Source: Promethearchaeia archaeon | GTDB taxonomy: Archaea > Asgardarchaeota > Lokiarchaeia > Sigyniarchaeales > SOKP01 | Assembly (NCBI GenBank): GCA_029856295.1 | Contig: JAHQWS010000208.1 | Location: 1 to 32,091 of the forward strand | Reading direction: 5' to 3' | DNA length: 32,091 bases | Shown: positions 3,058 to 3,161 of the stretch, piece after piece | Position numbering within the stretch: the stretch's first letter is position 1 | How the letters are laid out: each line of letters starts with the position of its first letter | The notes under the pieces: generated by a model | The model's database searches: none | Told to the model about the DNA's origin: nothing | The model's input: only the letters and a program-made list of their open reading frames with translations | Made by a program: the position numbers and the translations under genes

Positions 3058-3161
3058 TGGGAGGGGGGGGATTCGAACTTCCAGAAGGCTATCGACGTGG
3101 TAGCCTTTCCCCGGCCCCTTGGTCCCAAACCAAGAATCATACCAGGCTAGACCACCCTCCC
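3058..3161 (-). tRNA. tRNA-Pro(TGG) containing a 30-nt intron in the T-arm (intron 3079-3108)
   Basis: On the minus strand: GGGAGGG...CTTGG-TTTGGGA-CCAAG...GGGG-[30 nt]-G-TTCGAAT-CCCCC-CCCTCCC-A. Acceptor, anticodon and T stems all pair once the 30 nt are removed. CCA is not encoded. Confidence 0.9.

Follow-up and report, generated by a model that had tools for sequence, protein, structure and literature searches.

The window analysed here, a stretch of 32,091 nucleotides of Lokiarchaeal DNA (genome bin G000), carries on its minus strand a tRNA-Pro(UGG) gene (3058–3161) whose T-arm is interrupted by 30 additional nucleotides, and the question is whether these are an intron that is spliced from a working tRNA. 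The Rfam tRNA model RF00005 was matched in full over exactly 3161–3058, scoring 38.8 bits (gathering score 29), and placed the insertion just before the T-arm. A cloverleaf drawn by hand gave an acceptor stem GGGAGGG/CCCTCCC with all 7 pairs formed, a D-arm of the usual archaeal tRNA-Pro form, and the anticodon arm CTTGG-TTTGGGA-CCAAG, with the anticodon TGG at 3125–3127. These are followed by the variable loop GGGCC, by GGGG, by the 30 extra bases, and then by G, TTCGAAT and CCCCC. Once the insert, AAAGGCTACCACGTCGATAGCCTTCTGGAA (3079–3108), is taken out, GGGG+G pairs with CCCCC in a T-stem of five G-C pairs and the cloverleaf is complete, as in an archaeal BHB tRNA intron. The 104-nt precursor would yield a mature tRNA of 74 nt, CCA not being encoded, from a 5′ exon (3109–3161, tRNA positions 1–52), identical at 53 of 53 nt to the tRNA-Pro(UGG) gene of G012, and a 3′ exon (3058–3078, positions 53–73) placed by reading the sequence and by the Rfam match. 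A preliminary description made from the letters of the window had held that this tRNA folds only if 3108–3079 are removed, and that the canonical 37/38 site is uninterrupted; Rfam and the manual cloverleaf agree with the former, and the 37/38 site is indeed unbroken. ARAGORN reported no tRNAs in the window, as expected for a T-arm intron, and since the gene is missed in this way, tools that consider only the anticodon loop may report too few tRNAs for Lokiarchaeal bins.

The boundaries of the insert were also examined as a splice site. CCGG of the 5′ exon (3111–3114, tRNA positions 47–50) pairs at all four positions with a CTGG (3081–3084) located close to the insert's 3′ end, giving a central helix with one G-U pair, and this helix is bordered by two 3-nt bulges, GG|A (3108–3110) and AA|G (3078–3080). 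The BHB rule, by which each bulge is cut between nucleotides 2 and 3, predicts the 5′ and 3′ cuts where the bars stand. As the cloverleaf and the cut rule independently give the 52/53 boundary, the register of the intron is fixed twice. Within the insert, AAGGCTA (3101–3107) and TAGCCTT (3085–3091) form a 7-bp stem around CCACGTCGA (3092–3100), all of these elements being on the minus strand. When the 30 nt were shuffled with their base composition preserved, 5 of 2,000,000 sequences had all four central pairs as well as a stem of 7 or more contiguous pairs. The helix, bulges and stem proposed in the preliminary description are thus confirmed in their geometry. A 5-nt loop with a closing C-G pair, C[ACGUC]G, describes the intron loop better than the 9-nt one given there, because the closing pair and the loop pattern C[NNNUC]G recur in each of the 14 family introns described below. 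For the outer helix no more than one G-C and two G-U pairs could be written (GGG at 44–46 with TTC at 54–56), in agreement with the weak outer helix noted earlier. The stable exon-side outer helix of a strict BHB (hBHBh′) is missing, and the intron therefore has the relaxed form. Unconstrained minimum-energy folding of the precursor produced the intron stem without the central helix, and the folding z-score (−1.02) was not informative; the BHB assignment is therefore based on register and covariation instead of energy.

In the pathway that we propose, the 3′ part of the intron would pair in the precursor with exon nucleotides 47–50, so that the 4-bp helix forms, flanked on either side by a 3-nt bulge, with the intron hairpin inside. 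In each bulge a two-subunit endonuclease would cut after the second nucleotide; ligation of the exons, probably by RtcB, would then let the T-stem close. We infer that the window tRNA is transcribed, cut and ligated in this manner, and that the product functions. The other course, in which the 30 nt are retained and the tRNA functions despite an enlarged T-arm, has no positive point in its favour. The T-stem would be split between 52 and 53, with the insert competing for nucleotides 49–50, and in relatives this tRNA lacks the insert. Transfer RNAs with such an enlarged and split T-arm are not known to work, and we consider retention most improbable compared with removal by splicing.

To search for introns at the same site, we built two covariance models for the splice region, R1 and, with the loop masked, R2, and ran both over 228 genomes of the phylum. 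At E < 1e-6, R2 had 14 matches, all at position 52/53 and distributed over 10 genomes, every one of which belongs to a single Lokiarchaeal family, that of the window; R1 gave the same 14 and two weak matches. The introns (loci L102–L111 and L115–L117, and the window) are found in tRNA-Pro(UGG) (G000, the window genome, and G026), tRNA-Pro(GGG) (G055, G031 and G027), tRNA-Phe (G000, G009, G026, G017, G097 and G100) and tRNA-Arg(UCG) (G009, G026 and G022). Weak model matches in G192 and G204, from another family, were excluded because their T-arm inserts do not fit 52/53 cleanly. A loop-blind DNA pattern for the 3′ splice region, scanned over 84,980 named genomes, yielded six real matches, all labelled Lokiarchaeota or Lokiarchaeia. 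Pattern matches at G077:C87 and G028:C239, and in Bacteroidia and Burkholderiaceae, had no surrounding tRNA and were discarded as chance. A strict DNA pattern that required an intact GG before TTC had no match in 58 relatives. BLAST with the window gene detected tRNA-Pro genes nearly everywhere among 97 relatives, and in most of the family members inspected tRNA-Pro(UGG) is intronless.

Each of the 14 same-site introns is 30 or 31 nt long. The central helix is paired at 4/4 positions in all of them, in the variants TCGG/CCGA, CCGG/CCGG, CCGG/CTGG and TCAG/CTGA, and the intron stem has 7–9 bp whose sequence varies widely by position. Among the ten 30-nt members, both sides have changed in 6 of 13 pairs, and the covariation score was 0.47, compared with 0.27 in shuffles (0 of 500 reached 0.47) and at most 0.21 when the strands were slid. 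Compensatory helix changes are thus present among related introns (ten 30-nt members scored, all 14 compared). For the window, shuffles and family comparison support the CTGG strand of the central helix, these together with covariation support TAGCCTT, and covariation supports AAGGCTA. The source bin is 72% complete and 4.4% contaminated, in 337 contigs, and an assembly error or a mixture of strains might have put 30 nt into the gene; independent assemblies from other genera, however, have introns of equal length and form at the same site, and an artefact of this kind is exceedingly unlikely.

Heterotetrameric splicing endonucleases with a lysine-bearing loop are linked to relaxed substrates (PMC12397907, PMC4033280). 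With PF01974, almost all relatives were found to have two endonuclease genes. In the window genome, the catalytic subunit (L181) could be aligned to crenarchaeal structures (179 residues, E = 2.7e-38). It keeps His, Tyr and Lys, whereas chain 3ajv, otherwise nearly identical, has Ala in place of the His, and its FYGSPLGINKPR is aligned at the crenarchaeal loop. The partner subunits of G003 (L174) and G022 (L177) are without the catalytic His and without the loop. From sequence, the Lokiarchaeal enzyme is predicted to follow the (alpha-beta)2 heterotetramer pattern, both genes being present in relatives. Typing of the endonuclease in the same genome, which the preliminary description had suggested, succeeded for the catalytic subunit; the partner was missing from the window's own bin, 72% complete, and was found in relatives. 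RtcB was likewise not found in this 72% complete bin, and is present in 18 of the 21 genomes searched; close relatives have both subunits and RtcB. The relaxed, noncanonical T-arm BHB intron first proposed from the window is supported by same-site introns in three other kinds of tRNA, by compensatory changes and by an endonuclease of the broad-specificity type, and we conclude with high confidence that the window contains a functional Lokiarchaeal tRNA-Pro(UGG) gene with a BHB intron at 52/53, which would be spliced as proposed.

The bin holds further tRNA-Pro(UGG) genes. One, intronless, lies at G000:C308:5286–5360, inside a dense array of 24 intronless tRNAs (G000:C308:5286–8171, L185). Another, of bacterial type, is on C219 (L184), a 4.3-kb contig in which the GC content increases near 3 kb, from about 0.33 to 0.49, with bacterial-looking genes in its right part; this contig is probably contamination or a chimera. 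The preliminary description had listed against itself a second intact tRNA-Pro(TGG) accompanied by a silent or unspliced window gene, and as to the second gene it is present, in the C308 array and also on C219, so the window gene need not be essential. With such genes at hand, the window gene could be a decaying or silent copy that has received an insertion, decoding being left to an intronless tRNA-Pro(UGG) such as that of the array. Against this, the stems outside the intron are all intact, the 5′ exon has an identical counterpart in another genus, and an exact BHB register with covarying structure is not expected of a random insertion. Moreover, the array tRNA-Pro(UGG) is strongly unlike the chromosomal one, and the array tRNAs evolve fast, with a mean identity of 75% between G000 and G004. 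A silent copy is therefore very unlikely, and we retain the functional, spliced gene as the explanation of the locus.

The array is collinear in the congeners G002 (G002:C160, L197) and G004 (G004:C22, L194:6304–9336) at about 70% DNA identity, and partially so in G007 (G007:C266, L196) and G015 (G015:C157, L195), which belong to another genus. Because collinear arrays exist in congeners, contamination is unlikely to account for the one on C308. In G004, where it lies on a 280-kb contig, it has 27 tRNAs for all 20 amino acids, including an Ile tRNA with anticodon UAU. The array is a second, apparently complete tRNA set in genomes where many other tRNAs have introns. A viral or mobile origin is possible; only short tRNA matches were obtained for the array in a phage collection. 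In a 2019 survey, tRNA clusters were found only in haloarchaea and methanogens (PMC6333295).

Noncanonical introns are not confined to the window gene. The same bin has further ones in tRNA-Phe (52/53), tRNA-Gly (53/54), tRNA-Ala(CGC), tRNA-Ala(UGC) and tRNA-Thr(CGU), and by eye about 30 of the 42 tRNA genes of G022 contain inserts. The tRNA-Gly(UCC) intron (L031:5069–5170) is 30 nt long, with a central helix CCCG/CGGG. The tRNA-Phe genes at L095, L098 and L101 apparently have three introns each, in the D-arm, in the anticodon stem and at 52/53 in the T-arm, and tRNA-Pro(GGG) of the window's bin (L183, G000:C316) apparently has two, in the anticodon stem and variable loop, with its T-arm uninterrupted. 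Within tRNA-Pro(UGG) itself, introns occur in the T-stem (the window), the anticodon stem (G001), the anticodon loop (G002–G004), the variable loop (G011), the T-loop (G012), and both the anticodon stem and the T-stem (G026). None of the four congeners has the window's 52/53 site in this gene, which points to a fast turnover of intron positions. The G012 gene (G012:C231:11400–11700, L187) shares the 5′ exon of the window gene, yet its intron is in the T-loop at 58/59, with a perfect helix GTTC/GAAC.

Without exception, the 14 introns at 52/53 have the hairpin loop C[NNNUC]G, across four kinds of tRNA and despite turnover of the stem. As neither R2 nor the pattern scan carried loop information, this conservation is not an artefact of the search. 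The shared loop may reflect common ancestry, since the 14 introns amount to about seven combinations of tRNA and genus. Related loops were seen in the 53/54 intron of the Gly-UCC gene of the window's bin, C[AUAUC]G, and in a T-loop insert of the Lys-CUU gene of G022, C[AUCUC]G. For the latter (L125, 1–200, minus strand) a clean BHB could not be written by hand. The 58/59 intron of G012, which also has 30 nt, has the loop C[CUUUA]G, and C[NNNUC]G is therefore not a rule for all T-arm introns. In the tRNA regions of G022 that were fetched and inspected by eye, C[NNNUC]G was never an intron hairpin loop except in the Arg 52/53 intron and in Lys. Origin by a single transposition was probed by pairwise identity, the mark sought, as for the transposed introns of Thermoproteales, being that different tRNA genes within a genome contain almost the same intron. 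Compared with the tRNA-Phe intron of G000, the window intron is identical at only 18 of 30 positions, and compared with Pro-GGG introns of another genus at 23, with site, length and loop in common. That the Lokiarchaeal 52/53 introns (30–31 nt) form one dispersing family, with the loop under selection and the stem turning over by compensation, is a tentative idea to which we give limited credence. If it is true, C[NNNUC]G would serve a separate purpose, such as binding a processing factor or holding the precursor in shape while the T-arm is open. Pairing of the intron loop with the T-loop was rejected on reading, as it fails in genes having UUCAAAU. A contact of the loop UC with the D-loop GG is possible by reading, but the hairpin looks too long for it.

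The conserved intron loop was the least expected result, together with the turnover of tRNA-Pro(UGG) intron positions. The loop is a concrete and testable oddity, and a single tRNA gene with several intron positions in one family is a good setting in which to study intron gain and loss. The window adds a Lokiarchaeal T-arm site to the map of archaeal tRNA introns, and no description of noncanonical tRNA introns in Lokiarchaeia was found among the papers searched. T-arm introns in Thermoproteales and other TACK archaea occupy sites that include 53/54, 56/57 and 59/60, and tRNA-Pro(UGG) of Pyrobaculum islandicum has introns at 25/26, 37/38 and 56/57 (PMC4090602). The window intron resembles these in its BHB or relaxed BHB form, in its occurrence in tRNA-Pro(UGG) and in the related type of endonuclease; it differs in that 52/53 is absent from the example sites of that review, an open-ended list closed by 'etc.', and in that the window gene has one intron (PMC4090602). 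The lysine-bearing loop is shared with the crenarchaeal heterotetrameric endonucleases (PDB 3p1z, 3ajv and 2zyz; PMC12397907), the Lokiarchaeal protein being known from its sequence. Closer in lineage are the Atabeyarchaeia and Freyarchaeia, Asgard archaea of other classes, in which, according to the portions of the report drawn on here, 92–95% of tRNA genes have introns, often noncanonical and with several in many genes; those portions mention neither the loop motif nor a 52/53 family (PMC11291895). Noncanonical tRNA introns are already reported in other Asgard archaea, and the 52/53 intron adds a member to them.
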